42,428 bases of DNA from a virus: the IMG/VR virus record IMGVR_UViG_3300046028_002388, positions 1-42,428 of that record; one strand, given 5' to 3'. Below the pieces are notes generated by a model, which was not told the origin of the DNA, ran no database searches, and saw only the letters and a list, made by a program, of their open reading frames with translations. Below, piece by piece: positions 9,312 to 37,854 of this stretch. Made by a program: the position numbers and the translations under genes. The stretch's first letter is position 1. Each line of letters begins with the position of its first letter.

Positions 9312-9312
9312 C

Positions 9313-9573: not shown

Positions 9574-9596
9574 CAATATAGTTGTTTTAATGTAAT
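9570..9596 (+). promoter_or_regulatory. Candidate promoter before the second collagen-like fibre
   Basis: TTGACA at 9570-9575 overlaps the stop of the preceding gene, and TGTAAT at 9591-9596 is a 5/6 match to the -10 consensus. The spacer of 15 nt is shorter than the usual 17, which lowers confidence. A pyrimidine-rich leader without a Shine-Dalgarno sequence leads to ATG 9614. Confidence 0.35.
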
Positions 9597-9613
9597 TAAT
9601 TCAATTCTTCTCT

Positions 9614-11518: not shown

Positions 11519-11579
11519 TTAACAAAAATAATGCTTGCATTAAATAATAATTACATTTAATTTCAAAAAACAATAACCC

Positions 11580-12143: not shown

Positions 12144-13867
12144 GTCTCATAAAAGCAAACGCAGTCCAGATCGGACAATCAGGAACAGCAACGCAGAACT
12201 TCACGCTGGCAGTGCCATCGTCACCAGACGGCACGATTAAGCTGGCACGGGGCAATGCTAACGCAACTACGCAGGATGTGTTGAGTGTAGATGCAAGCGG
12301 AAATATTAATGGTCTTGTTAAATCAACAGGCAGCACGACTGCTCGTTCACTTGTTAACCGCTTCGCTGATGTGGTGAATGTGAAGGATTTTGGTGCAGTT
12401 GGTGATGGAGTAGCTGATGATACTGCCGCAATTCAAGCATTTTTTAACTATGTAACTTCTAATGGAGCATTTGGTATTATCACGAAAGGCATATATAAAG
12501 TTTCATCTAACCTTACTATAACCATTAATGGTTATGGTTTTAGTATTTTAGGAGCTGGAAATGGATCAGTTTTTTTCAAGGCATCAAATGCGTTTCCAGC
12601 AACTCCAGTAATTAATATTTTAGGAACATCTGGATCAAATGTTGGATTTGTAATTGGTGGATTTACTATTACAACTGAATCTGGATATACTGGAAATGCC
12701 ACTTGTGGACTTCAAATTGGCAACCCATCTCAACCAACATATATCAATGGTTATCAATTTTCCACAATTCAAGACTTAAATGTTATTGGATTTCCAATAC
12801 AATATAATATTGTTCACGCCAGAATGATTAAATTTAATAACTGCTCTGGTTGGAATCCAGCCAGTGATACAAATAATATATGTTTAAATATTTATCAAAA
12901 TGGTTATTTTACTGGCGATCTTGTATTTGATACTTGTCAATTTGTTTCGCTTAATCAATCTGGAAAAATAGCAGTCAATTTTTCATCTGACATTGGCCCA
13001 TATAATGGATTATCTGGAAACTATAGTATTTCTGGAATCAACTTTATTAACTGTGATTTTTATGCTGGAGAAAATTGCGTTAAAGCCACAGTTAGTAATG
13101 GAGCATATTTGTCTGATATATGGTTTACAAATGTTCAAATAGATCAAGAAACAACAAATTGTTTTAATTTTGCAGCTTCTGGCGATGGCTCTGTAATTAC
13201 AAATATACATATTGCAGATTGTTACATGCAAAAAGCAACCTATTGTCAAATTTTGTTTAATGTAACAAACCTTGCTTCAGTAGGAGCAATATTCATTCAC
13301 GATAATTATATTAATCAAACAGATAATATGGGAATTAATTTTTATTCCAATAATGCAACTATTCGTGGAGTTAATGTTAATAATAATATTTTTACTGATC
13401 CATTTACAGGTACTGCACTTATTATTTTTAATAATATAAAAAGGTTTTCTTGCACAAATAATACCGCAGTTGAAGTATTTAATCCAGCAGCATTTGCAGA
13501 GCATATTGTTCAGATAGAGAATGGTTGCGATAAATTTCTTGTATCAGGAAACAATGGAGCTAATTTCACTGCATTAAGTGTAATTAATGATTTAAGTGGT
13601 AATGTTGAAAAAACCATTACTAACAATCCCGGATATAATCCAATTGGATTACAAACAATTACTGTTGGAGCATCTCCATTTTCTTACGTAAACAACTCTG
13701 GAACAACACAAATTGTAACAGTTGCCAATGGAACTGTTACTGCATTAAATAATTCTGGAATAACTATGGGAGTTCTTTCTGGAGGAAATTATATTGTTGT
13801 AGCTTCTGGAAAAACTTTAATTGTTACATATTCTTCTACTCCCAATATGTATTCCCAAGGATTGTAA
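12140..13867 (+). CDS. Tailspike with pectate-lyase-type beta-helix (copy 1)
   Basis: 575 residues. An N-terminal head (1-60) is followed by [19 protein letters not shown] (62-80) and the signature KDFGAVGDG...DDTAAIQ (82-99), typical of pectate-lyase-superfamily tailspikes. The long middle is rich in N, G, I and V, with regularly spaced strands ([36 protein letters not shown]), consistent with a right-handed parallel beta-helix. The C-terminal about 90 residues form a separate beta tip ([19 protein letters not shown]). Such spikes bind or cleave surface polysaccharide. Residues 62-100 are nearly repeated in the next spike. Confidence 0.85.
12326..12441 (+). repeat. Homologous tailspike head segment (partner at 14131-14246)
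   Basis: About 115 nt encoding the TTAR(S/T)L.NRFADVVN and KDFGAVGDG region are closely similar in the two tailspike genes, while sequences on either side diverge. Together with the mini-ORF repeats (13903 and 15662) this outlines a duplicated unit of about 1.76-1.81 kb. Confidence 0.75.
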
Positions 13868-13902
13868 TTAATAGTATTATGAGCGAAAACTAAATAAAAC
13901 TA

Positions 13903-13982
13903 ATGAACCTCTACGATTACACAAAAGACAAACCAGACTACGAAGTTGAGCAACAACGCTGGGAAAAAGAAGGATACGATAT
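13903..13982 (+). repeat. Direct repeat, about 80 bp (partner at 15662-15741)
   Basis: The mini-ORF DNA is repeated almost exactly 1759 nt downstream in the same orientation, bracketing the second tailspike. Recombination between the copies would delete or exchange the spike while leaving one mini-ORF. Confidence 0.85.
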
Positions 13983-13986
13983 TTAA
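13903..13986 (+). CDS. 27-residue mini-ORF following tailspike 1
   Basis: A short ORF (start MNLYDYTKDKPDYEVEQQRW, end EKEGYDI) between the two tailspikes. Its sequence is nearly identical to the mini-ORF at 15662, which follows the second spike; only a few bases differ in 81 nt, mostly at third positions and at the last codon. Conservation of an intact frame in both copies argues that it is translated, or that the copies arose recently. The peptide is highly charged and aromatic. It could be a spike chaperone or tip peptide; the function is unknown. Confidence 0.55.
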   Translation: MNLYDYTKDKPDYEVEQQRWEKEGYDI

Positions 13987-13989
13987 ACT

Positions 13990-15660
13990 ATGAGCGCAAA
14001 CATTAAAGCATCAGTAGACGGAACACAGGCAATCATCGGGGTAGGAGGCGTAGACCAGATGACTGTCAGCAACGCTGGCGTAGTCATGGCAAATAGCTTT
14101 GTAGGGTCAGCATCGAGTGCTACGGCTCTTGCAACTGGATCGACTACGGCAAGGACATTGGCAAACCGCTTTGCTGATGTGGTCAATGTGAAAGACTTCG
14201 GTGCTGTTGGGGACGGAGTTACAAATGATACTGCTGCAATTCAAGCTGCAATTGCAAGCGTATTTAGCAATAGAAAATCGTTATATTTTCCTACTGGAAC
14301 ATATTTATACGATGGTGGAGGTAATCTTGGAAATGGAAATGTCATGTATGGGGATGGAAGAGATTCTACTACAATTCTTTCTCGTCTTGCCAGTCCTACA
14401 TCTGGTTATTTGATAAAAGCTGCTGGGTATGGTTGCGGATTTAAAGGATTAAAATTTGCTGCTCAAGTTGCACAAACATCAGGATCATATGTATGGCTTA
14501 GTGGGCCAGAAACATTTATTAATGATTTTCATATGACTGGAGATTTCAATGGAATTTTAATGACTGGAAATGTTTCTCGCATTCGTCATGGCCGTTTTCA
14601 AGATGGAGCTACAAATGCAATTAGAATCCGTTCAGAGGGTGGAGATAACAGTCAGTTAATTGATGATGTTTTGATGGGCGCACAAACGCCGCAAATTTCA
14701 AGTGCTGGAATTAGAGTTAGAAATTCATCTGCACTAATAATTAGTAATACTTCAGTTATTCAACAAGGTGTTGGACTTCTTATAGACCCAACAACAGCAA
14801 CTCAAAGCGCAAATACAGCAGATGGAAATGTATTTAGTTTATATGTAAATAATTGTTTTTTTGATAACAGTTCTGATTCTGGGATAAAAATAAACCCAAC
14901 AGGAACAGGTTCTGTTGTTAGAAGTAGATTTGCTAATTGCTGGACTGGCTCAAGTGCATCTGATGGAATAAAAATTGTAAACGCTGGATCAGGAATCGTT
15001 AATGGAATATATTTTGATTCCTGTCACTCAGTCAATAATGTAAGTTCATCAGGAATTACAACAGGTGGAACAATTAGTGATGTATCAATAAATGGAGGAG
15101 TATTTTCAAATAATTTAAATGGAATTTTTCTTAATGCTGGAACATCTAATTCCAAGATTTGCAATGCAACAATCGGAATAGGCGGTGGATTTACAGGAAA
15201 TACTGGAAATGGAATAGTTTTAGCTTCTGGAGTTACAGATACAACCATAACTGGAAACATTATTCGTAATAATACTTTAAATGGAATTTCATTAAATTCT
15301 GGTTCTGATGGGTTTGTAATAACAAATAATATTATTTTTGGAAATTCTTCAAATAATATAAACATAGCATCAAGCTCGTCTAATAGGAGTATTAAAAATA
15401 ATATAGGCATAAATTCTCCAGATATTGCATTTGGCAATGGAATAATGACTACAGGAACGAACTCAGTAATATTGAATCATAATTTAGGGATAGTTCCGTC
15501 TTCTGATTTGATTATTATTTGGCCGACAAGCGGTTGGGGTTCAGATGTTTTATATGTTGATACAACATCCATTACATCTACACAGTTTACAGTTAGAAGA
15601 GCATCAAACGCTCCAAGCAATCTTACTTTTGGATGGAGAGTTCAAATAAACAAAATATAA
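13990..15660 (+). CDS. Tailspike with pectate-lyase-type beta-helix (copy 2)
   Basis: 556 residues. The head (1-50) differs from spike 1, but residues 50-86 ([16 protein letters not shown] then KDFGAVGDG...NDTAAIQ) match it closely. The body carries beta-helix turns with N-ladders (TGNIIRNNTLNGISLN, FVITNNIIFGNSSNNINI). The last about 75 residues (LNHNLGIVPSSDLIII, FTVRRASNAPSNLTFGW) resemble a separate C-terminal domain found on many spikes. ATG 13990 follows the mini-ORF stop by 3 nt. It is likely a second depolymerase or receptor-binding specificity for surface glycan. No catalytic acid pair can be assigned from sequence alone. Confidence 0.85.
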   Translation: MSANIKASVDGTQAIIGVGGVDQMTVSNAGVVMANSFVGSASSATALATGSTTARTLANRFADVVNVKDFGAVGDGVTNDTAAIQAAIASVFSNRKSLYFPTGTYLYDGGGNLGNGNVMYGDGRDSTTILSRLASPTSGYLIKAAGYGCGFKGLKFAAQVAQTSGSYVWLSGPETFINDFHMTGDFNGILMTGNVSRIRHGRFQDGATNAIRIRSEGGDNSQLIDDVLMGAQTPQISSAGIRVRNSSALIISNTSVIQQGVGLLIDPTTATQSANTADGNVFSLYVNNCFFDNSSDSGIKINPTGTGSVVRSRFANCWTGSSASDGIKIVNAGSGIVNGIYFDSCHSVNNVSSSGITTGGTISDVSINGGVFSNNLNGIFLNAGTSNSKICNATIGIGGGFTGNTGNGIVLASGVTDTTITGNIIRNNTLNGISLNSGSDGFVITNNIIFGNSSNNINIASSSSNRSIKNNIGINSPDIAFGNGIMTTGTNSVILNHNLGIVPSSDLIIIWPTSGWGSDVLYVDTTSITSTQFTVRRASNAPSNLTFGWRVQINKI

Positions 15661-23944: not shown

Positions 23945-24757
23945 ATGGGTGGACAAACATACAAACCAGCAATTCAAAAGCCTAGACCTGATCTTAACAT
24001 GATGATGGCATCTGAGGCAAACAAGGGAATGTATGGTGGTCTTGCTTCTCAAGGCAGACTATTTGAAATGGCTACCCAGTTAAAGCCAATTGAGCAAACA
24101 TTTGATCCATCTGCGGTATCTAAACAATCTTTTGAATTAGGCATCGAAAATGCCAATCGCGCACGTCAATTTGAAGAGTCGGTGGATCCAGCAACAGCAA
24201 GGATGCGAGCAGGAATGAGTGAGACTGTTGAGAAGCTAACCTCACCTGAGAGTTGGCAAGATAAGCTGGGGCAGTGGGCAAAGACAAAAGGATTGGCCCA
24301 AATGATGGGTACTGGAATCGACATGGGATCCACCATCGGCAAGTCTGCAATGTTTGATCAATCCACGGCACAGGGTAGACAGATTGCTTTGGAAGACTTG
24401 GCACTGCGTCAAAAGTATCTCGATGCAACTCAAATGCAGGGTGGAATTGACCCCGGCTCATTGGTTGCGGCCCAACAAGCAGCGAAAGGCCAGAACCAAC
24501 AGAGTCTCCAAGAGTGGCAACGTGGTGTCCTCTATGGAGCGCAAGGACTTGGACAAACAGCACAGGACGCAATTAACCGCTCAATGGGTAACATCCAGTC
24601 TGCTCACACCGCCAATGTTGCTGACACTCAGAACTATAATAACATGATGAACCAAGTCATGGCCCAAAACGCGCAAAGCAAAAATGCCGCAATGGGATCT
24701 TGGATTACTGGTGGTGGTGCAGTTGCTGGTGCGGCTACTGCTGCAATTATTATTTGA
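23945..24757 (+). CDS. Ejection-type internal virion protein (MGG family, 1)
   Basis: 270 residues, starting MGGQ, rich in A, Q, G and M, with long amphipathic stretches (RARQFEESVDPATARMRAGM, AALQ-type helices) and a glycine/alanine hydrophobic tail (SWITGGGAVAGAATAAIII) that could insert in a membrane. Such proteins are typical of internal, ejected proteins of podoviruses. Two more genes nearby (25604, 26530) start MGG and share this composition. Its stop overlaps the start of the ATP-pyrophosphatase gene (TGATG). Confidence 0.6.
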   Translation: MGGQTYKPAIQKPRPDLNMMMASEANKGMYGGLASQGRLFEMATQLKPIEQTFDPSAVSKQSFELGIENANRARQFEESVDPATARMRAGMSETVEKLTSPESWQDKLGQWAKTKGLAQMMGTGIDMGSTIGKSAMFDQSTAQGRQIALEDLALRQKYLDATQMQGGIDPGSLVAAQQAAKGQNQQSLQEWQRGVLYGAQGLGQTAQDAINRSMGNIQSAHTANVADTQNYNNMMNQVMAQNAQSKNAAMGSWITGGGAVAGAATAAIII

Positions 24758-25599
24758 TGAAAAACCTAATACATAAAACAATCGATAAAGCAGTTAATTG
24801 GAACAAACAATGGCCGAATTCGGTCATCTTTTGGTCTGGTGGAAAGGATTCAACTGTCCTTTTGCATTTTCTAAAATTCAAATGTGGAATTGATCTTCCC
24901 GTTGTTCAGTTTAGACAACCTAAATTCCGCGAAAGATATGCATATTCAGATAAGCTAATTAAAGATTGGCAATTATCTGTATATGAATACCCAGCATTAA
25001 AATATGGTCTTTCTGATGGGCCTGATGTAGAAACTGGTGAGGTTAGATTTGATTTACTTCATTATTTCCCTTGGGGTAATAATAACATAGTTCTATCTTT
25101 GGGAACTGAACGTCCTAAAGCAAACGAGCCATTTATGTGCGGTGTTGATGACTTTCTAATGCGTCCAACTGGAACATTTAATTTTCCGTGGAATGCAGTG
25201 TGGATCGGAACTAAATATACTGACACAGACTTGATTAAAGGTCATGTTCCATTGGCACAAGACATTCGTCACGTCGATGGAAGTCCAGTGTCACTCTACT
25301 TGCTAAAAGATTGGACTGACGAAGATGTTTACGAGTATCTAGAGACAAACAACGTAAAACCAGATCCAACACGATATGTCAAAGGCAAGCACGGATGGAT
25401 GAATAACCCAGACAAGTCACTCAATGCTGACTTCTATCCTGTCTGCCTTAATTGCGTTGATCGGCATCAAGGCCCACACGTCGATTGTCCAAAGCTAAAG
25501 GCAAAGATCACGAATATTTCACATCTAGCACCTTACGATGATATCGTAATACCAGACTTAGGATTTAAACCAGTAACTTGGAACAACAAAATAGAATAA
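24757..25599 (+). CDS. PAPS reductase-like ATP pyrophosphatase (SGGKDST)
   Basis: 280 residues from ATG 24757; an upstream in-frame start at 24700 would add 19 Trp/Cys-rich residues read out of the previous gene and is rejected. SGGKDST (27-33) is the PP-loop of adenylyl-sulfate/PAPS reductase-type enzymes, and LLKDWTDEDVYEYL (182-195) is the conserved segment of that family. Cys230, Cys233 and Cys244 (CLNC...C) could bind Fe-S or metal. Family members reduce PAPS or activate substrates for sulfur transfer, as in DndC-type DNA phosphorothioation. No other dnd gene is visible here. The location between ejection-type genes is unusual. Confidence 0.8.
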   Translation: MKNLIHKTIDKAVNWNKQWPNSVIFWSGGKDSTVLLHFLKFKCGIDLPVVQFRQPKFRERYAYSDKLIKDWQLSVYEYPALKYGLSDGPDVETGEVRFDLLHYFPWGNNNIVLSLGTERPKANEPFMCGVDDFLMRPTGTFNFPWNAVWIGTKYTDTDLIKGHVPLAQDIRHVDGSPVSLYLLKDWTDEDVYEYLETNNVKPDPTRYVKGKHGWMNNPDKSLNADFYPVCLNCVDRHQGPHVDCPKLKAKITNISHLAPYDDIVIPDLGFKPVTWNNKIE

Positions 25600-25603
25600 C
25601 ATT

Positions 25604-26182
25604 ATGGGTGGATCACAATCAGCAAACGCAACAGGGGCAGCATCAACACCAGTGGCAAACAGTCAATTCGGTGGACTTCTTGGTAGTGCATCGAATGCAA
25701 TTGGTCGATCTGGTGATACAATGCAAAATCTATTTTCTGGCAAGTTAGGAACTGGAGCGCAACCTCGTCCAGACTACAATCCACAAAAGCAACAACAGAA
25801 CCAAATGGGTGATGCTATAAAAGACGCTTTTGGAAAGGTTGGTCAAGCGGCAGCATCCCCGTATGATCGTGCTGCTAAATCGCAGTCTGATTCCGCTTCA
25901 GCGTGGTCTGCCATGCAGCGTGGAAGTGGTGACGGAAGTGGCAGTCTTGGTTTTTCATCGATGGGTGGATACGATGTACCAGAGGCTGGTGATGAAAAAG
26001 TATCGCAAGGATGGGCAGATGCATTTAAGTCCGTTGGAACTGCTGCAATTGGTGCTTTGGGATCTGCTGGTGGTACTGGTGGATTTGGATCACAAGCAGA
26101 AATGCTAAAACATACTGCACCCGGAACAACTGGATCATTTAATGCTGGAATGGGATGGGTTCCCCGTGCTACCCGTGCTTAA
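25604..26182 (+). CDS. Ejection-type internal virion protein (MGG family, 2)
   Basis: 192 residues beginning MGGSQSANATGAAS. Gly, Ser, Ala and Gln dominate, with low-complexity stretches (QKQQQNQMGDAIKDAFGKVG, GSGDGSGSLGFSSMGG). It has no enzyme motif. It follows the PAPS-reductase-like gene after 4 nt and overlaps the next gene by 1 nt. The composition and position suggest a minor internal virion protein. Confidence 0.55.
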   Translation: MGGSQSANATGAASTPVANSQFGGLLGSASNAIGRSGDTMQNLFSGKLGTGAQPRPDYNPQKQQQNQMGDAIKDAFGKVGQAAASPYDRAAKSQSDSASAWSAMQRGSGDGSGSLGFSSMGGYDVPEAGDEKVSQGWADAFKSVGTAAIGALGSAGGTGGFGSQAEMLKHTAPGTTGSFNAGMGWVPRATRA

Positions 26183-26466
26183 TGGACGATGAATACGACT
26201 GCGAAAAGTGCGGTGCTTGTTGTTGCTTCAAATGGTCATGGCCTGTGTTGCGACGAGATCGATCTGATGCGACTGGTATTCCGAAAGAGATGCAAAGGGA
26301 AGACTACCCGTTAATGAAAACGACTGACTCTCGATGCGTTGCCTTGGACGGAAAAGTTGGTGAGAAAGTGTGCTGTATGATCTATGCAGACAGACCGAAT
26401 TCTTGCAGACAATTCCAACCGGGGTCTGATTTGTGCAAAGAAGCGAGAAAGAAATTGACAATTTGA
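26182..26466 (+). CDS. YkgJ-like cysteine-cluster protein
   Basis: 94 residues from ATG 26182, overlapping the preceding stop (TAATGG); an in-frame ATG at 26155 lies inside the neighbour. The motif C7-x2-C10-x2-C13-C14-C15, followed by C52, C64-C65, IYADRPNSCRQF (67-78) and C85, matches the CxxCxxCC family (YkgJ, UPF0153), thought to bind zinc or iron. The end of the gene holds the TTGACA at 26455. It is interleaved with ejection-type genes, which is not a usual place for a metal-binding protein. Confidence 0.75.
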   Translation: MDDEYDCEKCGACCCFKWSWPVLRRDRSDATGIPKEMQREDYPLMKTTDSRCVALDGKVGEKVCCMIYADRPNSCRQFQPGSDLCKEARKKLTI

Positions 26467-26529: not shown

Positions 26530-27045
26530 ATGGGAGGAGGAGGAATGCCCAAACCAGCACCAGCACCAGACAACACACCAGTGTTGCTTGAGCAAATGCG
26601 TCAAAATAGAGAAGAGTCCGCTCGCGCTAGACGCGAAACGGATCTTTCTCAACGCAACGCTATGATCGAAGCCCAAAACCAGCAAGCGTCGATGCTTGCG
26701 CGTGAGGGGTCACAACGCGCACAGCAGTCCATTGGTGGCATGAATGCACTAAAGGCAGCAGAGGATGCCGCTGCGCGTCAACGTAGCTTGCTTGCGGCAC
26801 AAGGTGCAGGAGCAGCCGCGACAGGAACTGGCTACGACATCAACACTGCCCGTGCTGGTGCGCTTTCAAATCTCGGAGCGGCATCTGGTGTTTTACCATC
26901 CACTGGTGCTAACGTACCAAACCCAACTATGGTTAATCCTGCAATGACAACGGCAATGGCTAACCAAGGAGCGGGTGGTGGCACTTCGCGTGTAAACCAA
27001 TTCGCAGTTCCTTCCGCATCTGGACTAACATTTGGTGGGGTATAA
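26530..27045 (+). CDS. Ejection-type internal virion protein (MGG family, 3)
   Basis: 171 residues, starting MGGGGMPKPAPAPD, then helix-rich (LLEQMRQNREESARARRETD, AEDAAARQRSLLAAQGAG) and Gly/Ala-rich. It has one of the few clear Shine-Dalgarno sequences in the window: AAGGAG, 7 nt before the ATG. This suggests it is made in larger amounts, or independently. It is followed after 3 nt by a larger structural protein. It is probably an internal virion protein. Confidence 0.6.
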   Translation: MGGGGMPKPAPAPDNTPVLLEQMRQNREESARARRETDLSQRNAMIEAQNQQASMLAREGSQRAQQSIGGMNALKAAEDAAARQRSLLAAQGAGAAATGTGYDINTARAGALSNLGAASGVLPSTGANVPNPTMVNPAMTTAMANQGAGGGTSRVNQFAVPSASGLTFGGV

Positions 27046-27048: not shown

Positions 27049-28791
27049 ATGGCACTACCCACTGGTGGCTATTCGTACACTCCACAGACCGCAAATCTTG
27101 GAGCGAGTCCTCTTTCTGCGTTGAAACCTCTCGACGTTGGAGTAAGCGTATCGTTTACTCCAATGCCCAAGTACGAGGTTCCTTCCGCGCAGCAGGAGTT
27201 AGTCAGCATGGGTGCTGCAAAGGGTTTCCAAGCGTTCGCTGAACCTATCATCAAGACATTTAAGGATAAAGAAGACGAGAAAAAAGCAACAGCATTACTT
27301 AAAGGAAAGTATGAACAAGAAGAAAAGATTGCTGGAATTCGTGCAGCAAAGACTGCAAGAGAGTTACTGATGGAGGATTTAAGATATAAAGATCTTGAAA
27401 ACAGAGTTAATGAAAGAGGTGGAAACAAGGGGGAGGAAACTATTAACTATGGTAGTTTTGAAGATGAAACTCCTATAGGTGATTCAGATTTGCCAACCAA
27501 TCAAGACGCAGATCGTTCAAGTGGATCTAGTTTGTTTAATATAAACGAGGTTGAAAGCTCTGATTTTTTAGGTCAAATTAACCCAACTCAAGAAAAAGTT
27601 GCTGCATTGTGGAACACTCCTTTGGCTGAATTGACAGCAAGTGCTGGAACTGCTGGAGCGCAGCAAGAGCAAGCATTGGCATCGATGGGTGCTGGAACAC
27701 TCACTCCAGCAGGTCAGGTAATGTCTACTGACACTCAAGCCCCAGCCCCAGCACCAGAGGAACCTAGATTTGGATTAATGTCAAAATTCCGTGGTCTTTA
27801 TACTCCAGAAGAAGCAAAAAAGATGAGGGCTGAATTCTCTGGTAAAATGACTGAATTTTCTGGAGATGAAAAAATGGAACCAGTTCCATCTGGAGTAGGA
27901 TACCAATTTGATAAGCCAATGCGAGATGTGGCCCCTGTTCGTGTTGAGAAAGCTATTCCAGTAGGACAGGCATCTCAAGCTACAGAAAAACCAACAAGAA
28001 AAGACATAAGCAGATATGTTCAGGCTTGGGCAGATCCAAGCGTAGCATCATCTGCCGCTGAAAAGGTTGCTGAAATCATGGGCAGTGAATATGCTTATCC
28101 AGAAATTACGCAGTTTAAAAATAAAAATGGAGACGTTGGATATAGGGTAAATATTCCAAAACGATTGAGTGGAAAAGAATTGGCTGAGTTGAAAAAATCC
28201 ACAACATCTGAAGGAAAAACTCTTCTTGAATCTCAAATTAATAAAATAATTGCACTTAATGGTGCAACAGAAGATTTGAATTCTATCGAAAAAAGATTGA
28301 ATAATATACCATCAGAGTGGAGAGGCCCAGTTGCTGGATATTTTGCTAAAAAGAACCCATATGATGCAGATATTCAAGCGTTGACATCTCAAATTATTCA
28401 AATGATCCCCGGTCTAGCTAGGGGTGTGTTTGGTGAAGTTGGTGTATTGACTGAAAAAGATGTTGAAAGATATACTAAAACAATTCCAAGCATTGAAAAA
28501 GACCCCAAAGTTGCTGCACAAATCCTTAATGAATTAAGACAAAAATTGGGAAGAAGCACAAAAAGCACTGTTGGTGCATATGAAAAAGCTGGATTTGATG
28601 TTAAAGGATTTAAAGAAGGATATTTTGATCAGGAAAAACCTTCAGATAAAGAAAATGATAGTAATAAAGCAATTGCTTTAGCTAGGCAATTAGCAGGTCT
28701 TCCAGAGGGTAGTCCAGAAAAAGCTAAGGCAAAACAAGATTTAATGCAATTACGGAAAAAAATAGTAGAAGCTAACAACGCAGGGAAATAA
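27049..28791 (+). CDS. Large helical virion protein, probably ejected
   Basis: 580 residues, largely charged and helical. The region 1-60 is small and polar. There is a coiled segment of about 70-130 (KTFKDKEDEKKATALLKGKY, ELLMEDLRYKDLENRVNERG), then a low-complexity linker. A folded C-terminal region of about 390-545 contains GLARGVFGEVGVLTEKDVERY, a string I associate with conserved phage virion proteins. Size and position between small ejection-type proteins and the giant gene fit an internal core protein. No enzyme motif is visible. Confidence 0.6.
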   Translation: MALPTGGYSYTPQTANLGASPLSALKPLDVGVSVSFTPMPKYEVPSAQQELVSMGAAKGFQAFAEPIIKTFKDKEDEKKATALLKGKYEQEEKIAGIRAAKTARELLMEDLRYKDLENRVNERGGNKGEETINYGSFEDETPIGDSDLPTNQDADRSSGSSLFNINEVESSDFLGQINPTQEKVAALWNTPLAELTASAGTAGAQQEQALASMGAGTLTPAGQVMSTDTQAPAPAPEEPRFGLMSKFRGLYTPEEAKKMRAEFSGKMTEFSGDEKMEPVPSGVGYQFDKPMRDVAPVRVEKAIPVGQASQATEKPTRKDISRYVQAWADPSVASSAAEKVAEIMGSEYAYPEITQFKNKNGDVGYRVNIPKRLSGKELAELKKSTTSEGKTLLESQINKIIALNGATEDLNSIEKRLNNIPSEWRGPVAGYFAKKNPYDADIQALTSQIIQMIPGLARGVFGEVGVLTEKDVERYTKTIPSIEKDPKVAAQILNELRQKLGRSTKSTVGAYEKAGFDVKGFKEGYFDQEKPSDKENDSNKAIALARQLAGLPEGSPEKAKAKQDLMQLRKKIVEANNAGK

Positions 28792-28797: not shown

Positions 28798-31700
28798 ATG
28801 AGTGATTACAATGAATTGTTAAAAACAATTGATGATGCTCTAGCGCAAACAGACAAAGCGCAAGAACCAAAGAATCCAACTCAAGCGATACTAGATGAAA
28901 TTGATGCTGCTTTAGGAGAAAAGCCAGAAGCACTACCAGAAACTCCTGCACCAGTTCCATCCGTCACACCTGCACCAGTTCCATCTGTTACTCCAACCCC
29001 TATTGAATCCGTTCCACCCGCTCCAGTTCCGTCTGTAACACCTCAACCCGTTGTTGCCGTTACTCCAGCACCAGTTGCTACTCCCCAACCTTCCCCTACA
29101 CCATCTCCTATAAGTCAACCAGTGGCAGAGTTGCCAAAACCAAGTCCATCACGACTTCCTGAACCAACGCCACCTAAAGAACCTGAAGTTGATTACTCGC
29201 TTCCTAGCAATCAATTTTTGGCAATGGTGAAAGATATTCCTGATGAAAAATGGGGCAAGGATGAGGTTAATTTCTTAAATACTTTAAGTGGAAAAGATTT
29301 AAGTGAAATTAAAAAACAACGTCCAGATGTTATTTTTGATGATATTATAAATCAAAAAATATTTGATTATCAAAGAGAAGCAACTCCATATAAGATTCCA
29401 GAAACTAAAGAAGATTTTTATAATTTAACAAAAGCATCAGTTACTTTTCTTGGTCGAGATGTTCCAGTAATGGCAAGTGAAATTGTTGGTGACGTTTTAG
29501 TTGGTGGAGCAAAAGCAGTAAAACAAGGTGTTCCATTTTTGCTTGGTCAAACATCTGATTACGCAAAAGGGTTAGAAGCTGAACAATTGCTATCTCCAGA
29601 AAAACAGCAAGAAGTTCAAGCATGGAGAAAACGCGCATGGGAAATTGCTAACACCCCACTAAAAGGAGGTGAGCAACCTAATCCTAATGCATACACAGAC
29701 GCTAAATATCTTGAGAAGATAAAAGAGGGTCTTACTGAAGAACAGATACAAGCACTTGATCAAAAGTATGAGCAAAAAAGAATGGAAGCAAAGCAGGTTC
29801 CATTTGAAACACTAGCACCACTTGCTGACTTGCCACCAAGTCTTGCATTCTTGGGAACAAAATTAGCTACTGGTGGATTTCAAACTTGGGACTCAATAAG
29901 TGAGCGATTTGGACTTCTTACTAAAGAACAAGCATATGAAAGGTGGAAAACAAGGGAACTTCTTGATTCAGTAAAAGCAAAGATGGCATATGAAGAACCC
30001 CGTGCATTTGCTAGGGCAATGGACATTTATAAACCGATCTATTCTCCTGAAAGGAAATTGATGGGAATGTATCTTCCAACTCTTTCTTATTTTGCGAGTT
30101 TATCAACTCCATCTGTGGAAGAGATGATGATAGTGGATCCTAAGTTGACCAAGGAGGAAGCTGAGTCAAAACGAAAAGCTACCATTGAGGCCAATGTTCT
30201 TGATTCGATTGAAGAGACTAAGAAATCAATTCCAGAAACAGATCCAGAATTGCAAGCATTCGGTGACGTAGCTATCCCCGGAGGATTTGGCCTTGATACA
30301 TTTGGTTATGCCTTAAATGTTGTTAATGCAGCAAAAAAACTAACTCCAATAGCTAGACTTAAACTCAAAAAATTACGTTATACAGACGATGAAATCAATG
30401 TTCTTGAATCTAAAGCTCAAAGTGTTTTAAAAGAAAAACAACTCAAGGAACTAGAATCTAAAAAAACAGCAGGTCTAGTTGAACGTGCGGCTGGAGCAAC
30501 AGCAAAAGGAATTGAAGCAACTGGTGAATATCTTGAAAGAAGTCCAAAATTCCAGACAATCGCAAGGTACACTCCGTATGTAGCTGGGGCCGCATTGGGA
30601 TATGAAATTAATCCAGAGAATCCATTGCAATCACTTGTTGTTGGTGGAATTACTACTAAGTTGGGATTAAAGGGAGCTAAATTTGGTGCTAAAACATTGT
30701 TGCAAGCTCCCAAAGTTATAAAAGAAATTAGTGCTGCAAGACGCATTTCTGCTGGTGGTGAGATGGGGCCATTAGCAACTCTTGAAAGCATAGCAAAACA
30801 GCAGGATGAAGTTAAGAATCTTACTGCAAAACTAAAAACGCTTTCAGAGGGTACGGAAGAATACATCGACACTAAAAAGTTGCTCGATGATGCAAAGGAT
30901 AAAGCCAAGGGAATCAAAGAAGGTGGAGGAGAGGTTGTCGATTACGAGGGTATTGGCAAGGTAAGCGATACCACTAAAAACATCTTGAGGTTTGCCAGTG
31001 ATGATTTGATTTCCAACATTGGTGAGTATGCCAAAATGGGCATTGAACCAACGATCCTTGGACTTTCAATGGGAATGATCGACTCCTCAGACGAGGAAGA
31101 GTTAAAGGGCATGATTGGATCAGGTCTTGTATTTAGTCTTGGTGGACGTGCAATGCAGCAAGGGTTCCATAAGTTCCTTGGAGAAGATCCAGTCATTGCT
31201 GCTAGAAAGTCTAGACAGGCCAGTATGGACGCATTGAAAGCGTATCGTGATTCTAGTCCAGAAACACAGGGTGAAATCGATAGATTAACTGACTGGACTA
31301 ATGTCTTGCAACGTCAAGAGAACAAGATTGGTCAAGCGCAGAGTGATTTACAGGGTCTTCAATCGGAAGGGGCAAGTCCAGATAAAATCAAGAAAGCGGA
31401 AAAGGTTTTGTCCGCTGAACAAAAGTCATTGTCTTTGTTGAAAACAGCAAATGTCCAGACAAGGAATGAATTTGGTAAGAACTTCCTACAGCAATTAGCT
31501 AGAAACAATATGCTGATTAATGGAAGTTTGAAGGCTGGACAGAATAATGTTGGATTCCACATCCTATCTACACAGCAAATCTTTGATCATTTTAGGAAGA
31601 AGCCTGAGTACAGGGATGTTTCTGACGAGGATTTGATGATGAGTGCAACTCAGCAAGGTTTCTACTCTGGAACGGGCGGTAATGAGTATCGACCCGGCAT

Positions 31701-34700
31701 GGAGGTTTCTGATGCAGCCAAAGGTCTAGTTTTCGATACATCTAAACCATCCATTGTAGTAAATTCTGATGCTCTACAGAATCGCATGATGATCTTTGGA
31801 GAGACTCCAACAGAGGCACTCAATCACGAAACAGGTCACCACTTCGCTCGTATTCCAGAGATTCAGAATGCAATGGGTGACGCTCGAAAGGTTCTTTTCA
31901 CAAACGAAATCAAAGACGCTTCTGGTGCTGTAAAAGAGATATCAAACGGGTTGTATTCTGAAAAGCAACTCAATGAGATGTTCGTTAAGGACTACCTTAA
32001 AAACAGACCAAAGGATCAGGTTGCAGAGATTGCTAAAAATCTTGGTGTTTGGGACTACAACACAAACTCACTAAATGCCAAGGATGTTGGATCGTATATG
32101 CAAGAAGAGATTCTTGCTGAGTTATTCTCTAATACCCTATCGAGAAACCTTGGAAAGAACCTAGATTCCAAGCAACTTCATTTGCTCGATGTCGCTCGAT
32201 TGAAGATGAAAAACAATCTGTTGAAGAATGCCGTGACCAAGGTTCTTGGTCTTGGTGCATCCTCAGATGTTGTTTCAGAGTTGACCAATGCAAAGCTACC
32301 ACCAGAGGCACAATCTGCTGCTAGGAATGCAGTGCGATTAATCCAAAGCATGAATGGTGACTTTTCTACGATGGCATCGATGCCGCAAGCAGCACCAATC
32401 TCAAAGGCAGAAATCAAGAAAAGCAAGATAGCAGCAGAACGCTACGGAATGGATTCTGGTCTGTTTGCAACAAAGGTTGTTGCACAGGTATTCGATGCTG
32501 ATGGCAATCCAGTAGGTGCGGCAGTTGACGTTAATGACCCGTCTGTCTATGAGGGATCGTGGAGGATTAGCAAAGATGGTGAGGAAAGGTTGAGTGGATA
32601 TGGTCAAATCCCAGTTCAATTGCGTCAGTTGCAAGTTCCAGAGGGTGGAACATTGTCAATTGCCAAGCAAGTTGCCACGGAGGTTGATGGTGTAACTCCA
32701 AAGTTATTAAATCCTAAAGACCTTAAAAAACTACAACAAGATAGGGCATCGTTGTTCAAACAGGCAATTGATACCCCAGATTACGGCACACCGGGTCGAT
32801 TTGAAGCGGTTTCTGAAGGTTCTCAAACATATCGAGGATCATTCACTCCAATGCAGATTAAGGCTATTCAAGATTTGCCTGAAGGTATTGTTCCTCTAAA
32901 GATCAAAAAATACCTATTGGATCTCAACGAAGCTATTGTTAAGAAAGATGGAACACGCTTCTATGTCGATTATGCCGCAGTAATGGACGATAAAGGCAAC
33001 TACAAGGCATTCTCTCCTAAAATCTATGATGTAGTGCCAATTGGACTTCACTTGTCAAAAGATGGCAACTTCTTGGTGACAACAATTTCCGCTGGTAGAA
33101 TGATTGAGAAATTAAACCTGTGGAGTGATCGTATGCCAAACAGGTTGAATCCTTGGGGTGGTAGCAAGGAAGCATTTTGGTCTGATTTTTCTAAAAAGTA
33201 TTTAGACAACTGGACAAAGGGAATTGAAGGAAGTGGTTATGACAAGCAAGGGCAACCTATAGGAACAAATCAATTGGATGCAGATGTTCAAGCAGCAGAA
33301 GTTAAGAAATCTATTCTTAATGACTTTTTGAATTTGTTTACCAATGAAACCCAAGCATTGAATTTAGATAGGACAACTATTCCGAAAAGAAAAGGTGATC
33401 CTAAAAACAAGAATCTTGATCGAACAATTATGTCCATGCGAATCGATCACATGGCAGAATTGTTAGATGCAGACGATCTTCCTAAACTTCCAATTGATTA
33501 TGAGAAAGCAAAACTCAACTTCATGCCAGAAGATCCGATTGAGGCAGAAACGGAACGATACCCAACCTCCGAGCGTGGAATGTACTCTGGACTTCAAAAG
33601 ACCATCGACGAAAAGGTTCAGGGTAAATTTGCGTCACCAGATCAACTCAAGGCAATCGTCAACAACCCACAGAACGCAAAGGCCGAGGAACTAAAATGGT
33701 CTGGAGTGCTAGGTGAGATTGATCGTCTCGCAGCGGAGAACCAAGGCAAGGTTCCAAAAGACAAGGTCATGGATTACCTTCGCAACGAGGGTGCTATTAA
33801 ATTTGAAGAGGTGACGCTTGGTGGCAAGGAAGCATTTGATCAGAATAGGTTAAATCAACTTGAGGCTGAATACAGAAACCTCAAAGATCATCCAATTGAT
33901 GACCCATCATTCGGAGAGGATAAGTACGATGAGTTGATCAAATTGATGAATATCAGGGATCAAAGCACTACTGACACTCTATACAGTGAAGCAGAGAGAG
34001 TGATGAAGTTGGCTCAACAAGCTCAAAGACGTGGTGACAAAAAGACCGCAGAAAAGTATTTCAGAGAAAACGAGTTTTTGAATACACGGGCAGAGAAGCT
34101 GGATTTACAAGGACAAGGCTTGGCTAATCCTCCAAGATTTGCAGGGTTACAACTCCCCGGTGGCACAAACTACCGCGAGGTGGTGATGACGATGCCTGTT
34201 AAGCAAAACAAACCTCCATTCAAACAATGGTTTGAAGAAATGAATCTTGGGTCATTTGATGATTTAAATGAAAATCAAAAAAACCGCTTATTTGATCAAT
34301 ACGAAAATGAAATAGATCCGACTATACCCACATACACCTCCTCCCATTTCCCCGAAACACCCAACTATGTAGCGCATATGCGTCTCAACGAGCGCACTGA
34401 CGCTCAGGGTAACAAGGGGGATTTTATTGAGGAGTTGCAGTCTGACAGGCATCAAGCAGGTAGGGAGAAGGGGTACGCTGCATCTCAAGAAGAAATAAAT
34501 GAATCAAGTGCTTTAACAGAAAAAGCAAAACAACTTGGTGGAGTTTCAAATTTATCTGAAGTAGAAAAATCCAGATGGTATGAACTTGCTGATAAAATTA
34601 ATGCAAGTAATGATAAATCTTTAATCCCAGACGCACCATTCCGCAAAGACTGGTCTATCCAACTCTTTAAACGCGCATTGCGCGATGCCGTGGATTCAGA

Positions 34701-37700
34701 CAAGAAATGGATTGGCTGGACTACTGGCATCGAGCAGGTAAAGCGATACGAGGAAGCAATGCGTCAGGCAGTCGATGAAATCACTTGGAATACTCCCAAG
34801 GGTTATCAAAAAGCGTTTGCTGCTATCAAAAACGGAAACACAGTACTAGCAGGTAAAATCAACGATGATGGATCCGTTTACGATTCTGATACTGATGATG
34901 CCAATGGTAAGCAATTGAGCGAGGTGCTAGGAAAAGAAGTGGCATCGAAGATCCTTGCTGAAAACTCTGGAACTGCAACTAATGATGACCTCACAGTGGG
35001 TGGTGAAGGGATGAAGGGATTTTACGATCAAATCCTGCCTAAAGAGATTGGCAAGTATGTTGGTAAGATGGGGGGAAAGGTTGAGAAAAGTGAAATTGGA
35101 CAAGAGATTACTGAAGATGATTTAGACATGGGAGACTTGTCTGATGCGACTCCTCAAGAATTAGCTGAACTTGAAGCAACTGGTAAGGTTGTAGGAAATA
35201 CTGTACCCATCTGGAGAGTAGACATAACTCCCGAAATGGCAGGTAAAGTCCGTGGGGGTCAGTTGCAATTCATGCCAGCGGAGCAACCCACCGAATACGA
35301 GCCGATCTCTGCGCGTATACGCCCCCTACAAGGAATTTCCGCACCAACCAAGGCTGTTGGAGCGAAGGCACTCTCACTGGGTGAAATTGAGCCTCCTGTG
35401 AGGGGCAAAGCTATGTTGCCTGATATGGAGTTGAAACCTGATATCTCAGAAAAAGGCATACAATCTTCTGACATAATCACCAGCGCAAAACCTGCTCCAG
35501 ACGCAGTTATCAAGCCATTCTCAAATGCATTGGTATCCTCCGCAGGGTTGATCAACTTCCTTCCAGCTTGGCACGGAACTCCGCATGAAGTGGATAAGTT
35601 CAAGTTGAAAAACATTGGCACTGGTGAAGGAGCGCAGGCTTATGGCTGGGGGCTTTACTTTGGACAGGCAAGAAGTGTAGGGGAAAAATATAAAGAAAAT
35701 TTATCTGAATATAAAGCAACCCTTGATGGAAGAAAAGTAGCACCAGAAACATTATATGTAACATTTGGCCCAAAATATCCGGGATATTTAGACGGAGTAA
35801 TTAATTCCCAAGGACTTATTGAAAGATGGTTAAGACAACCTAATGCACAAAATCCATATCCAGACGGTTCTCAGAGGTCAAATCTTTGGAACGAAGTATC
35901 GTCACGGGCAAAAAGCGAAGGTAAAGGGGGCAACCTCTACAAAGTCGATCTCGACGTAAAAGACGAAGACTTGCTGGATTGGGATAAGCCTTTAAATAAA
36001 CAGAGTGAAAAAATCCGCGAAAATGTTTTAAGTGAATCTAAACTTCTTGGAGATTTAAATAGAGAATGGAATGGACAAGATTTGTATAAAAATTTGGTTG
36101 ATGAGTATGGTGGAGAAAAGCAAGCTTCAGAATATTTAAATTCTATTGGCATCCCCGGCATTCGTTATCTTGATGGCATGAGCAGAACAAGTGCCTCTGA
36201 CATCAATCGACGAGACGAACTTCTTAAAGAAGGGGCGCAATTACGAAAAACACTTGAAAACAACCCAAAAGATTGGGAAATGCGAAAGCAATTTAAAGAC
36301 TGGCTAACTGCAAGCGAACAAGAACTCGCTGCTCTTGAAAAACAAATTAAAAGTGCGGAGACATCACCAACTAACAACTACGTTATTTTCGACGAGAACC
36401 TAATCACTATCCTCGATAAGAACGATAAGCCAGTTCAGGGTGAGTTGCCTAGAGCAACTGGCTTGCAGTTCATGCCAGCACGTCCAATTGGAAAAACTGA
36501 ACCACTTCCAGACTTTGAAACAACAATCATAAAAGGAGTTACTCCAGCAAAAGGATTTAAATGGGATAAAGCAACGAATGTTGAAATTGATATTGGTGGT
36601 GGAAGAAAAATGTCATTCTCTTACGATCCTGAATACCTTGAAGTTCCAAAGTTCAAAGACTTAATAAAAGAACTAAAAGGACAACCAGTTATCCTTCTTG
36701 AAGCGGATCGTCAAAGGGCTACTGGTGGAGATATGGGTGGCCCATTGCATCCATTCCTTAAATCAAACCAAGTCACAATTACTGGGCCAGATGGCAAGAA
36801 ATACAAGGCAGTCTGGGCAAATATGACATCCACCTTTGTATCTGGGGCTAAAAATAGGTTGGCATCTCATGGAGCGAAATACGCTTTGGTTCACTTGATG
36901 GATCCAATTGCTCATAAATCAAACAAGCGAACCGCAAGGACTCTTGATAGGATGATGCGAAAATCAAAATTGAGCCAAAGGGAAAAGGAAATCATTTCAT
37001 TATCCATGCAAGCAGGAATTATTGCAGGAGAGAAATCAGCAATGAGTTCTGCTATAACCGCTTTAAAACGTCAAATGTCTTCTGCTAAAAAAGATCCAGA
37101 AAAGATTAGAATAATAAATGAAAAAATAAATAAAATTACAAAAGAAAGAGAAGATATTACTCCAAAAGGATTTTATGGTGAAATATTTAAAGCAGTTTCT
37201 AGTATTAAAAAGGCAATTAGTAATGTTAAAACTGGAAACTGGGCAGAAAACAGCATTGAAAAAGCAAATAAAAAATTAGAAAAATATGTTAATATAAAAG
37301 AATACAATGAATTATTAAAAAATAACAAATCATTGTATATTTCTGATAATATTGGGAATACATTCTCTGACAGGGGTTCAGCAATTGGAAGTATATTGTC
37401 ATTTAAGTTTGGCAAATTTGATCCAAGTCTTGTTATGCGTGAATCGTCAGATTTTAGGGAGGGTGAAAACCTTGATATTGTAACTGCGGTTGAACTTTCT
37501 CAAAATCCAGATATTTTTGCTTTGTATTTTGGAAAGGATCCAAAAGAAGAAGCGGCAATGTCTACTGCGGAACGTAAAGCAAGAGACGAAATGAGGGCTA
37601 ATCCTGATTTTGTCGAGCATGAGGCATACGATTGGGTAATGCTTGGGCCAGAAAAAGGAAACAATTTCTTGGTTAAAAACCCAGTAAAACCAGAGCAAAT

Positions 37701-37854
37701 ATTCAAGAAATACAGAGAAACTCATGCTGGTGAAACAGTGGTCGATGGCTCCGCTGAAACTGTTGCTGGAGCAATGCGAAAAAATGCTGGATTTATTTTG
37801 CGTGTTGACGAAGATACTCAAAAGGTATTAGCTTCAAAAAAGAAAAATAAATAA
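28798..37854 (+). CDS. 3018-residue polyvalent virion protein: metalloprotease, LPD-type domains and ADP-ribosyltransferase
   Basis: A single unbroken frame. Residues about 42-125 are a Pro-rich repeat (APVPSVTP units). About 130-900 is helical, with weakly hydrophobic, Gly-rich segments near 590-640 and 750-790. HETGH at 1010-1014 with EEILAELF (1103-1110) fits a zinc metalloprotease (HExxH plus downstream Glu). About 1200-1570 is a beta/alpha domain of unknown type. About 1595-1678 contains EELKWSGVLGEI, and about 1792-2150 contains NYREVVMTMP, RLNERTD.GN..DFIEELQSD and GEGMKGFYDQILP; both are strings typical of large polyvalent proteins of phages. AWHGTPHEVDKFKLK with GAQAYGWGLYF (about 2257-2550), ending IRYLDG...NNYVIFDE, is ADP-ribosyltransferase-like. 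A last domain spans about 2570-3018. F(M/L)P(A/E) recurs at 1575, 2158, 2254 and 2558, at domain joins. It is probably injected with DNA to disarm or modify the host. Confidence 0.8.
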   Translation: MSDYNELLKTIDDALAQTDKAQEPKNPTQAILDEIDAALGEKPEALPETPAPVPSVTPAPVPSVTPTPIESVPPAPVPSVTPQPVVAVTPAPVATPQPSPTPSPISQPVAELPKPSPSRLPEPTPPKEPEVDYSLPSNQFLAMVKDIPDEKWGKDEVNFLNTLSGKDLSEIKKQRPDVIFDDIINQKIFDYQREATPYKIPETKEDFYNLTKASVTFLGRDVPVMASEIVGDVLVGGAKAVKQGVPFLLGQTSDYAKGLEAEQLLSPEKQQEVQAWRKRAWEIANTPLKGGEQPNPNAYTDAKYLEKIKEGLTEEQIQALDQKYEQKRMEAKQVPFETLAPLADLPPSLAFLGTKLATGGFQTWDSISERFGLLTKEQAYERWKTRELLDSVKAKMAYEEPRAFARAMDIYKPIYSPERKLMGMYLPTLSYFASLSTPSVEEMMIVDPKLTKEEAESKRKATIEANVLDSIEETKKSIPETDPELQAFGDVAIPGGFGLDTFGYALNVVNAAKKLTPIARLKLKKLRYTDDEINVLESKAQSVLKEKQLKELESKKTAGLVERAAGATAKGIEATGEYLERSPKFQTIARYTPYVAGAALGYEINPENPLQSLVVGGITTKLGLKGAKFGAKTLLQAPKVIKEISAARRISAGGEMGPLATLESIAKQQDEVKNLTAKLKTLSEGTEEYIDTKKLLDDAKDKAKGIKEGGGEVVDYEGIGKVSDTTKNILRFASDDLISNIGEYAKMGIEPTILGLSMGMIDSSDEEELKGMIGSGLVFSLGGRAMQQGFHKFLGEDPVIAARKSRQASMDALKAYRDSSPETQGEIDRLTDWTNVLQRQENKIGQAQSDLQGLQSEGASPDKIKKAEKVLSAEQKSLSLLKTANVQTRNEFGKNFLQQLARNNMLINGSLKAGQNNVGFHILSTQQIFDHFRKKPEYRDVSDEDLMMSATQQGFYSGTGGNEYRPGMEVSDAAKGLVFDTSKPSIVVNSDALQNRMMIFGETPTEALNHETGHHFARIPEIQNAMGDARKVLFTNEIKDASGAVKEISNGLYSEKQLNEMFVKDYLKNRPKDQVAEIAKNLGVWDYNTNSLNAKDVGSYMQEEILAELFSNTLSRNLGKNLDSKQLHLLDVARLKMKNNLLKNAVTKVLGLGASSDVVSELTNAKLPPEAQSAARNAVRLIQSMNGDFSTMASMPQAAPISKAEIKKSKIAAERYGMDSGLFATKVVAQVFDADGNPVGAAVDVNDPSVYEGSWRISKDGEERLSGYGQIPVQLRQLQVPEGGTLSIAKQVATEVDGVTPKLLNPKDLKKLQQDRASLFKQAIDTPDYGTPGRFEAVSEGSQTYRGSFTPMQIKAIQDLPEGIVPLKIKKYLLDLNEAIVKKDGTRFYVDYAAVMDDKGNYKAFSPKIYDVVPIGLHLSKDGNFLVTTISAGRMIEKLNLWSDRMPNRLNPWGGSKEAFWSDFSKKYLDNWTKGIEGSGYDKQGQPIGTNQLDADVQAAEVKKSILNDFLNLFTNETQALNLDRTTIPKRKGDPKNKNLDRTIMSMRIDHMAELLDADDLPKLPIDYEKAKLNFMPEDPIEAETERYPTSERGMYSGLQKTIDEKVQGKFASPDQLKAIVNNPQNAKAEELKWSGVLGEIDRLAAENQGKVPKDKVMDYLRNEGAIKFEEVTLGGKEAFDQNRLNQLEAEYRNLKDHPIDDPSFGEDKYDELIKLMNIRDQSTTDTLYSEAERVMKLAQQAQRRGDKKTAEKYFRENEFLNTRAEKLDLQGQGLANPPRFAGLQLPGGTNYREVVMTMPVKQNKPPFKQWFEEMNLGSFDDLNENQKNRLFDQYENEIDPTIPTYTSSHFPETPNYVAHMRLNERTDAQGNKGDFIEELQSDRHQAGREKGYAASQEEINESSALTEKAKQLGGVSNLSEVEKSRWYELADKINASNDKSLIPDAPFRKDWSIQLFKRALRDAVDSDKKWIGWTTGIEQVKRYEEAMRQAVDEITWNTPKGYQKAFAAIKNGNTVLAGKINDDGSVYDSDTDDANGKQLSEVLGKEVASKILAENSGTATNDDLTVGGEGMKGFYDQILPKEIGKYVGKMGGKVEKSEIGQEITEDDLDMGDLSDATPQELAELEATGKVVGNTVPIWRVDITPEMAGKVRGGQLQFMPAEQPTEYEPISARIRPLQGISAPTKAVGAKALSLGEIEPPVRGKAMLPDMELKPDISEKGIQSSDIITSAKPAPDAVIKPFSNALVSSAGLINFLPAWHGTPHEVDKFKLKNIGTGEGAQAYGWGLYFGQARSVGEKYKENLSEYKATLDGRKVAPETLYVTFGPKYPGYLDGVINSQGLIERWLRQPNAQNPYPDGSQRSNLWNEVSSRAKSEGKGGNLYKVDLDVKDEDLLDWDKPLNKQSEKIRENVLSESKLLGDLNREWNGQDLYKNLVDEYGGEKQASEYLNSIGIPGIRYLDGMSRTSASDINRRDELLKEGAQLRKTLENNPKDWEMRKQFKDWLTASEQELAALEKQIKSAETSPTNNYVIFDENLITILDKNDKPVQGELPRATGLQFMPARPIGKTEPLPDFETTIIKGVTPAKGFKWDKATNVEIDIGGGRKMSFSYDPEYLEVPKFKDLIKELKGQPVILLEADRQRATGGDMGGPLHPFLKSNQVTITGPDGKKYKAVWANMTSTFVSGAKNRLASHGAKYALVHLMDPIAHKSNKRTARTLDRMMRKSKLSQREKEIISLSMQAGIIAGEKSAMSSAITALKRQMSSAKKDPEKIRIINEKINKITKEREDITPKGFYGEIFKAVSSIKKAISNVKTGNWAENSIEKANKKLEKYVNIKEYNELLKNNKSLYISDNIGNTFSDRGSAIGSILSFKFGKFDPSLVMRESSDFREGENLDIVTAVELSQNPDIFALYFGKDPKEEAAMSTAERKARDEMRANPDFVEHEAYDWVMLGPEKGNNFLVKNPVKPEQIFKKYRETHAGETVVDGSAETVAGAMRKNAGFILRVDEDTQKVLASKKKNK

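Follow-up and report, generated by a model that had tools for sequence, protein, structure and literature searches.

For the polyvalent proteins of phages, Iyer et al. (2017, PMC5512222) describe zincin-like metallopeptidase (MPTase) domains, ADP-ribosyltransferases (ARTs) and a GNAT family neighboring the ART, and proposed that such proteins are processed by their own metallopeptidases. The ARTs of polyvalent proteins, belonging to the Tox-ART-HYD2 clade, are defined by H, Y, and D residues (H-Y-D), with H located in strand 1, Y in strand 2, and D in strand 5 (PMC5512222). The virion RNA polymerase (vRNAP; gp50) of phage N4 is likewise giant and ejected and contains an HExxH domain; it is described as full length (PMC12633501) and as packaged unprocessed (PMC5512222). 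The DarA and DdrB proteins of phage P1 are packaged and proteolytically processed (PMC5512222; PMC12810830).

In this study, we analyzed a giant gene in a viral sequence record with a length of 42,428 bases, referred to as the window, and compared the encoded protein with its relatives. Thereby, we found a short tag which occurs far above chance, is concentrated in proteins with the same core as the window protein, lies at module borders, and is common to unrelated module types. The coordinates of the giant gene, its modules, and the tag copies are listed in Table 1.

The open frame is genuine, since relatives were found at 12 IMG/VR loci and the zinc-ligand pattern is kept at about 30% identity. 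A 100% identical protein is encoded in one 71-kb IMG/VR contig, perhaps from the same virus, which also encodes a terminase elsewhere (phrog_2, 2.8e-10). Upstream of the giant gene, the window contains tail-spike and collagen-like tail-fiber genes, and genes for Erf and an exonuclease are located downstream. Based on the tail spike and fiber genes of the window and on TerL, which the 71-kb contig encodes along with the identical giant protein, the latter is phage-encoded. Two adjacent genes (12140-13867 and 13990-15660) showed tail-spike matches in their N-terminal regions and are located beside the collagen-like tail fibers; two tail-spike-type genes in this position suggest a multi-receptor set. 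At both ends of the 71-kb contig (loci L235 and L237, the contig behind L003), a near-equal series of gene sizes was found (803, 193, and 620/626 aa). Because of this repeated series, and because several other contigs of the group have a size of 62-63 kb, the 71-kb contig may exceed one genome length. In another relative (L012), the giant gene appears to be split into two overlapping frames (7829-13144 and 13111-15540; 1772 and 810 aa), due either to breakage of this copy or to an error in assembly.

Table 1. Features of the giant gene and of the two genes preceding it (window positions; residue numbers refer to the giant protein).
Feature	Position	Strand	Basis
171-aa gene, candidate small ejection protein	26530..27045	+	further upstream frame in relatives
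580-aa gene, candidate ejection protein	27049..28791	+	next-upstream frame in relatives
Giant multi-domain protein, 3018 aa	28798..37854	+	single open frame from ATG to stop codon; 100% identical IMG/VR copy
Pro-rich segment, residues about 45-135	28930..29202	+	sequence; phrog_15511 match at 48-127, E 9.9e-6
Metallopeptidase-like core part, residues 940-1245	31615..32532	+	conserved residues in 35 aligned rows
HETGH, residues 1010-1014	31825..31839	+	HExxH or HExxxH in relatives
EEILAEL, residues 1103-1109, carries E1104, candidate third zinc ligand	32104..32124	+	alignment
Core part B2, residues 1246-1574	32533..33519	+	pLDDT mostly 85-95 from about 1205 to 1574
Junction motif 1, LNFMPE, residue 1575	33520..33531	+	order/disorder edge of model
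GNAT-like module, residues 1579-2157	33532..35268	+	alignment; AlphaFold; VIA Z
Junction motif 2, LQFMPA, residue 2158	35269..35280	+	sequence, AlphaFold model
Linker predicted to be disordered, pLDDT below 50 for residues 2163-2251	35281..35556	+	model
Junction motif 3, INFLPA, residue 2254	35557..35568	+	sequence, model
ADP-ribosyltransferase module; H2259, Y2287, D2532	35569..36468	+	sub-threshold Pfam match, H-Y-D residues, fold match
Junction motif 4, LQFMPA, residue 2558	36469..36480	+	sequence, model
C-terminal module	36481..37851	+	97-99% identical in L008, L009

The original prediction had described a giant protein with a Pro-rich start, a metalloprotease signature, two strings typical of phage polyvalent domains, and an ART-like domain. 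The Pro-rich start could be located in the translation, and all quoted strings were recovered: besides HETGH and EEILAEL, these are EELKWSG (1630-1636), ERTDAQG (1865-1871), GEGMKGFYDQILP (2069-2081), WHGTPHEVDKF (2258-2268), and GAQAYGWGLYF (2278-2288), and EELQSD is likewise present in the translation. The junction motif described below had gone unnoticed in this prediction.

The core of the giant protein comprises residues 940-1574 and consists of two parts. In 35 aligned rows, H1010, E1011, and E1104 were invariant and H1014 was present in at least 90%. HETGH with the downstream Glu thus represents an HExxH...E signature of the zincin type, which most relatives retain, and HExxH or HExxxH was found upstream of B2 in 48 of the 52 listed B2-bearing relatives. 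Two of the four others are truncated (L051, L229), and two read HExxE (L203 with HEVGE, L233 with HEAGE). In the predicted model, both HExxH and E1104 are helical (model helices 100-113 and 190-215), so that the core part is predicted to combine HExxH with a Glu in a second helix, as in zincin-like metallopeptidases. With respect to predicted structure, a zincin fold was not confirmed: VIA gave a Z of only 3.3-3.9 to a metalloprotease, and a Foldseek search with the core model gave no match at E≤0.001. The C-terminal half of B2 showed a weak WYL-domain-like match with VIA Z values of 6.2-6.6 to PafBC, BrxR, and one CapW, and of 5.2 to a second CapW. This Z range of 5.2-6.6 may reflect a common arrangement only. 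Among 50,697 GenBank phage records, no match to the core was obtained with four queries, including residues 1-1201 and residues 1001-3018, the matches of the latter all lying beyond the core. One pattern scan of bacterial genomes gave no match to the core either, and the carrier core appears to be known from environmental sequence only. In Pfam, nothing credible was obtained for one B2 relative and three relatives of the C-terminal module, and NCBIfam gave no credible match for single modules.

The two polyvalent-type strings do not represent two domains, as residues 1581-2159 form one predicted folded region in the AlphaFold model, which contains EELKWSG, ERTD, and GEGMKGFYDQILP, and the fold matches of this region are GNAT-like. 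Its VIA Z values were 8.5-8.7 to the toxins KacT and AtaT and 8.1-8.3 to NatD, which is modest by the yardstick of VIA. For a model with the GNAT-like and ART modules, Foldseek found nothing at E≤0.001, and Pfam gave no GNAT match for four homologues of the GNAT-like module. Two stretches resembling this module are present in a 2387-aa protein of Dolichospermum phage Dfl-JY45 (L015:1730-8893).

The ART module is predicted to be folded over residues 2255-2544. The suggested ART-like domain indeed carries the polyvalent-type residues, i.e. H2259, Y2287, and D2532. H2259 and Y2287 are located within predicted strands (696-702 and 727-730 in model numbering), and D2532 follows two residues past the predicted strand 967-971 (model numbering), where the consensus of the ART rows is F-D. 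By its predicted model, the module thus resembles an H-Y-D ART of polyvalent proteins. In the HMM search, ART-PolyVal (PF18760) gave a score of 18.8 bits, which is below the gathering cut-off of 31.2 bits; two relatives reached 29.8-30.0 bits (E about 1e-6), also below the cut-off. A search of the ART sequence against solved structures gave no meaningful match. The C-terminal half of the module (residues 2368-2467; 35899-36198) is matched by phrog_873 (1.4e-9), and the endolysin label of this family probably belongs to another of its domains. With HExxH...E, a GNAT-like module, and an H-Y-D ART, the protein is predicted to combine several disparate enzymatic domains in one polypeptide, as is characteristic of polyvalent proteins.

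BLAST comparisons among the relatives revealed that blocks of the giant protein move independently. The C-terminal 460 residues are 98-99% identical in L005, L008, and L009, and despite this near-identical module, L008 and L009 have a core of just 27-29% identity.

A motif of the pattern (I/V)(R/Q/N)[F/Y][M/L]P[A/E] was found at four module borders of the window protein (residues 1575, 2158, 2254, and 2558), and all four copies coincide with edges between folded and disordered regions of the predicted models. A related string inside the linker, AMLPD at residue 2206, is outside the motif pattern and was not counted. Four copies compared to 0.75 expected represent a moderate excess for the window protein by itself (P 0.007). 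Relatives were gathered with peptide patterns free of the motif, two of the resulting lists comprising the best 80 of 574 and the best 80 of 588 matches. The collected 234 loci comprise 230 from IMG/VR, three GenBank phage records, and one stretch of the window. After removal of redundancy, by which the window protein was dropped together with the copy identical to it, 133 frames with a length of 1000 aa or more were obtained. Tripeptides were ranked by their excess of distinct contexts. In the 133 listed giants, FMP occurred in 132 distinct contexts compared to 13.8 expected and was second only to WCC, which was seen once. In the 54 listed giants with either core part, FMP had the highest excess (124 distinct contexts, 5.9 expected) among tripeptides with at least 15 contexts, and it was absent from the top 40 tripeptides of the 79 listed giants lacking the core. 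Also, the wider motif was counted 194 times in 144,283 aa of core giants versus 33 times in 202,532 aa of other giants. From 144 non-redundant contexts, the consensus G-x-(I/V)-(R/Q/N)-(F/Y)-(M/L)-P-(A/E) was obtained.

With a narrower pattern, at least two copies were present in 42 of the 52 listed B2-bearing giants, one copy in six, and none in four. Three of these four are explained by a different fourth residue (three copies in L227, one in L198) or by the end of the contig (L182). L094 alone is truly without tag, as it has no [FYW][ML]P copy, yet its HExxH is intact. Regarding position, the 52 proteins contain four copies inside the core or N-terminal to it, 33 not more than 10 residues from the B2 end, and 162 beyond; in 38 of these proteins, [FYW][ML]P is found at a distance of up to about 13 residues from the B2 end. 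Eight representatives with less than 40% B2 identity contain 25 copies from the B2 end on (2.8 expected) and two copies before it (2.2 expected). A depletion of the motif in the core, as seen in 50 proteins (4 versus 12.2 expected), vanishes in these eight most distinct proteins, and therefore we only claim a lack of enrichment there.

As the same modules occur with and without this core, it could be determined to which part the motif belongs. Directly before the ART, it was found in 8 of 8 core giants and in 0 of 43 coreless giants (51 of 52 listed proteins, one being without anchor). At the end of the GNAT-like module, it was present in 30 of 34 core and 5 of 33 coreless listed proteins (Fisher P = 9.5e-10), thus being missing in four core proteins. 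For this count, an HMM-end rule was applied to 67 of 69 proteins, two being dropped as the module end lies within 10 aa of the frame end. A cruder rule, which anchors 43 of the 69 giants, gave 16 of 24 versus 1 of 19. Two of the five coreless positives (L065, L089) start at a contig edge, and their core may therefore lie outside the contig. From these comparisons, the motif goes with the carrier and not with the cargo. As a comparable tag of coreless ART giants, [FY]S[IL] before the ART was considered; it was rejected since it did not recur at other borders (14 examined).

Cutting the 52 proteins at the motif yielded 185 segments of at least 70 aa in 80 clusters (52 singletons), some segments being short linkers rather than domains. 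The cluster with the C-terminal module of the window protein has nine members, which always take the last place. The order of modules, supposed to be possibly new, is not distinctive, as 48 arrangements were counted in the 52 listed relatives, a number inflated by some truncated frames. A Pfam run was performed with 20 hand-picked cassettes of the 185, 13 of which gave no counted match. The Pfam cut-off was exceeded by Kinase-PolyVal (3.6e-22), Zeta toxin (9.9e-25), and DUF7178 (3.3e-7), and the matches to ART-PolyVal (9.7e-6 and 1.7e-4), Phage_L5_gp82 (1.1e-5), and GNAT (5.7e-5) were just under it. The tag-bordered Zeta-toxin cassette is located at L226:11526-13295, and the giant protein to which it belongs contains [FYW][ML]P eleven times. 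The polyvalent-type kinase cassette, also tag-bordered, is located at L203:14915-15787. Thus, the tag helps to parse giant phage proteins, since kinase, Zeta-toxin, GNAT, and ART domains were isolated by cutting there, and some of the 52 singleton segments left may hold new effectors.

As nearly all tag-bearing giants share one core, they are related to one another. The protein might be an ordinary polyvalent protein with a linker motif kept by descent in one virus group, its HExxH part being a host-directed effector or inactive. The absence of core matches in GenBank phages (four queries) and bacterial genomes (one pattern scan) and the existence of HExxE variants fit this explanation. Since unrelated families such as kinase, Zeta toxin, GNAT, and ART follow the same tag, and since linker descent would need selection as well, we consider it very improbable.

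Next to descent, exchange of modules could account for the tag. Here, short shared DNA would serve as recombination homology and the peptide would be a functionless relic. In line with this, mosaicism is strong (97-99% identity of the C-terminal module versus 27-29% of the core in L008 and L009), and direct repeats of the families D1 and D4 are present at junctions in the window. In addition, the F codon of the motif is TTC in 159 of 177 cases (about 80 expected). The share of TTC is 94% in FMP, compared to 80% in the remaining FM pairs of core giants and 54% (49/91) in other frames of the same loci. Because TTC is over-used at this F, the DNA level may also play a role. The Pro codons at the motif, however, follow the background of each gene (100/55/45/33 observed versus 95/60/47/31 expected), the peptide varies conservatively (F/Y, M/L), and module types which are tagless elsewhere carry the tag with this core. 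On these grounds, a recombination signal as the sole cause was rejected, and the relic explanation as such is improbable. The motif is mostly conserved at the protein level, plus a codon effect at F. An internal translation start at the ATG of FMP was also rejected, as the L codons CTT, CTC, and TTA substitute for ATG.

Podoviruses possess small, middle, and large ejection proteins. By a loose rule, which takes the longest stop-to-stop frame close to the border, the giant gene is directly preceded by a frame of 308-759 aa in all 46 testable relatives, and a further upstream frame of 150-250 aa is present in 39 of them. By analogy, the small/middle/large gene set resembles podovirus ejection proteins. 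The 171-aa gene gave no family match, and a profile comparison of the 580-aa gene with vir555/PH1 neighbors revealed no homology. Just 5′ of these ejection-type genes, the window encodes a PAPS-reductase-like protein (24700-25599; 1.4e-5) and a CxxCxxCC zinc- or iron-chelating protein (26155-26466; 2.4e-8). The best structural match of the ART model was chain B of the cyanophage A4 pre-ejectosome (PDB 9k3a; VIA Z 10.3, rmsd 4.4 over 143 residues). A-4L ORF27 matches this chain across all 1717 residues and shows YHGT...GTYF...TLVINP. On the basis of this match and the synteny with the upstream frames, a location of the giant protein in the virion or among the injected proteins is plausible, and by the same analogy we infer that it may be packaged and ejected.

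Taken together, we propose, with roughly even confidence, a podovirus-type ejected polyvalent protein composed of a carrier and tag-bordered effector cassettes, with the tag as a probable processing site. The carrier would correspond to the N-terminal half (about 1-1574) with a proposed virion/ejection part, the HExxH metallopeptidase-like part, and B2. Effector enzymes, in the window protein the GNAT-like module, the ART, and the C-terminal module, would be plugged in behind it as cassettes, bordered by the tag in or beside a flexible linker. After packaging, the giant protein would be ejected, and its effectors might be set free by processing at the tag in the head or in the host cell. More speculatively, the built-in metallopeptidase might cut there itself; large hydrophobic residues are common at the P1′ position of zincin substrates. 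For processing of any kind at the tag we assume a probability of about one half, and for processing by the built-in peptidase of about one third. The processing reading is favored by the border position, the lack of enrichment in the core, the independence of cargo type, the disordered setting, and the co-occurrence with the HExxH core. It is disfavored by L203 and L233, which keep Y/FLPA tags next to HEVGE and HEAGE, by L094 with HExxH and no tag, and by N4 vRNAP as a full-length, unprocessed protein with HExxH (PMC12633501; PMC5512222). A prohead protease as processor was rejected, as neither Peptidase_S78 nor CLP_protease was found in four related contigs; the sensitivity of this search was limited, since Pfam Terminase_6N was missed in the same four contigs, one of which has a PHROG terminase.

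The counter-examples of processing could be accommodated if the tag were a docking motif, by which cassette borders bind a carrier or virion protein for packaging or portal threading, the protein acting uncut. This alternative accounts for the HExxE cases better than processing, as the tag is kept where HExxH is degenerate, and it agrees with the full-length description of N4 vRNAP with its HExxH (PMC12633501). Docking would also suit a motif which is short and conserved, contains a Pro and two hydrophobic positions, and is located in or beside disordered linkers. As docking has no known partner and requires neither siting at module borders nor siting at the B2 end (33 copies in the 52 listed proteins), we regard it as possible and rather doubtful.

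Returning to processing, the tentative and less than even expectation would be a phage-borne, self-processing effector polyprotein, in which a protease-bearing virion carrier delivers a train of interchangeable enzymes with the FMP tag as standard coupling. If true, a gene would only have to gain FMP tags at both ends in order to be added to the train of anti-host effectors. Furthermore, the passages of the 2017 proposal on processing by metallopeptidases (PMC5512222) name no site, and the tag would give exact candidate bonds. Among papers under CC0, CC BY, and CC BY-SA licenses, none was found that describes the motif or processing of this kind.

Compared with known systems, the giant protein shares the presence of several disparate enzyme domains per chain with the polyvalent proteins (PMC5512222). 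The main text of that study, as far as covered here, names no recurrent junction motif and lacks the word 'linker', whereas a single tag, associated with a single carrier, borders the effectors of the window protein. N4 vRNAP differs in carrying an RNA polymerase, and its description in the relevant sections of PMC12633501 contains no comparable cargo series. In phage P1, packaged proteins undergo proteolysis as proposed here (PMC5512222; PMC12810830), but DarA is described there as cut near the N-terminus by the prohead protease Pro and not between cargo cassettes. Chain B of cyanophage A4 (A-4L ORF27, 1717 aa) is a giant protein from the interior of the virion and has an ART-like fold close to its C-terminus, but it contains neither HExxH nor [FYW][ML]P and has no significant match to the four module models. 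Polyvalent proteins, H-Y-D ARTs, and GNAT-ART neighbors are thus already known, and the tag-bordered cassette layout is new.
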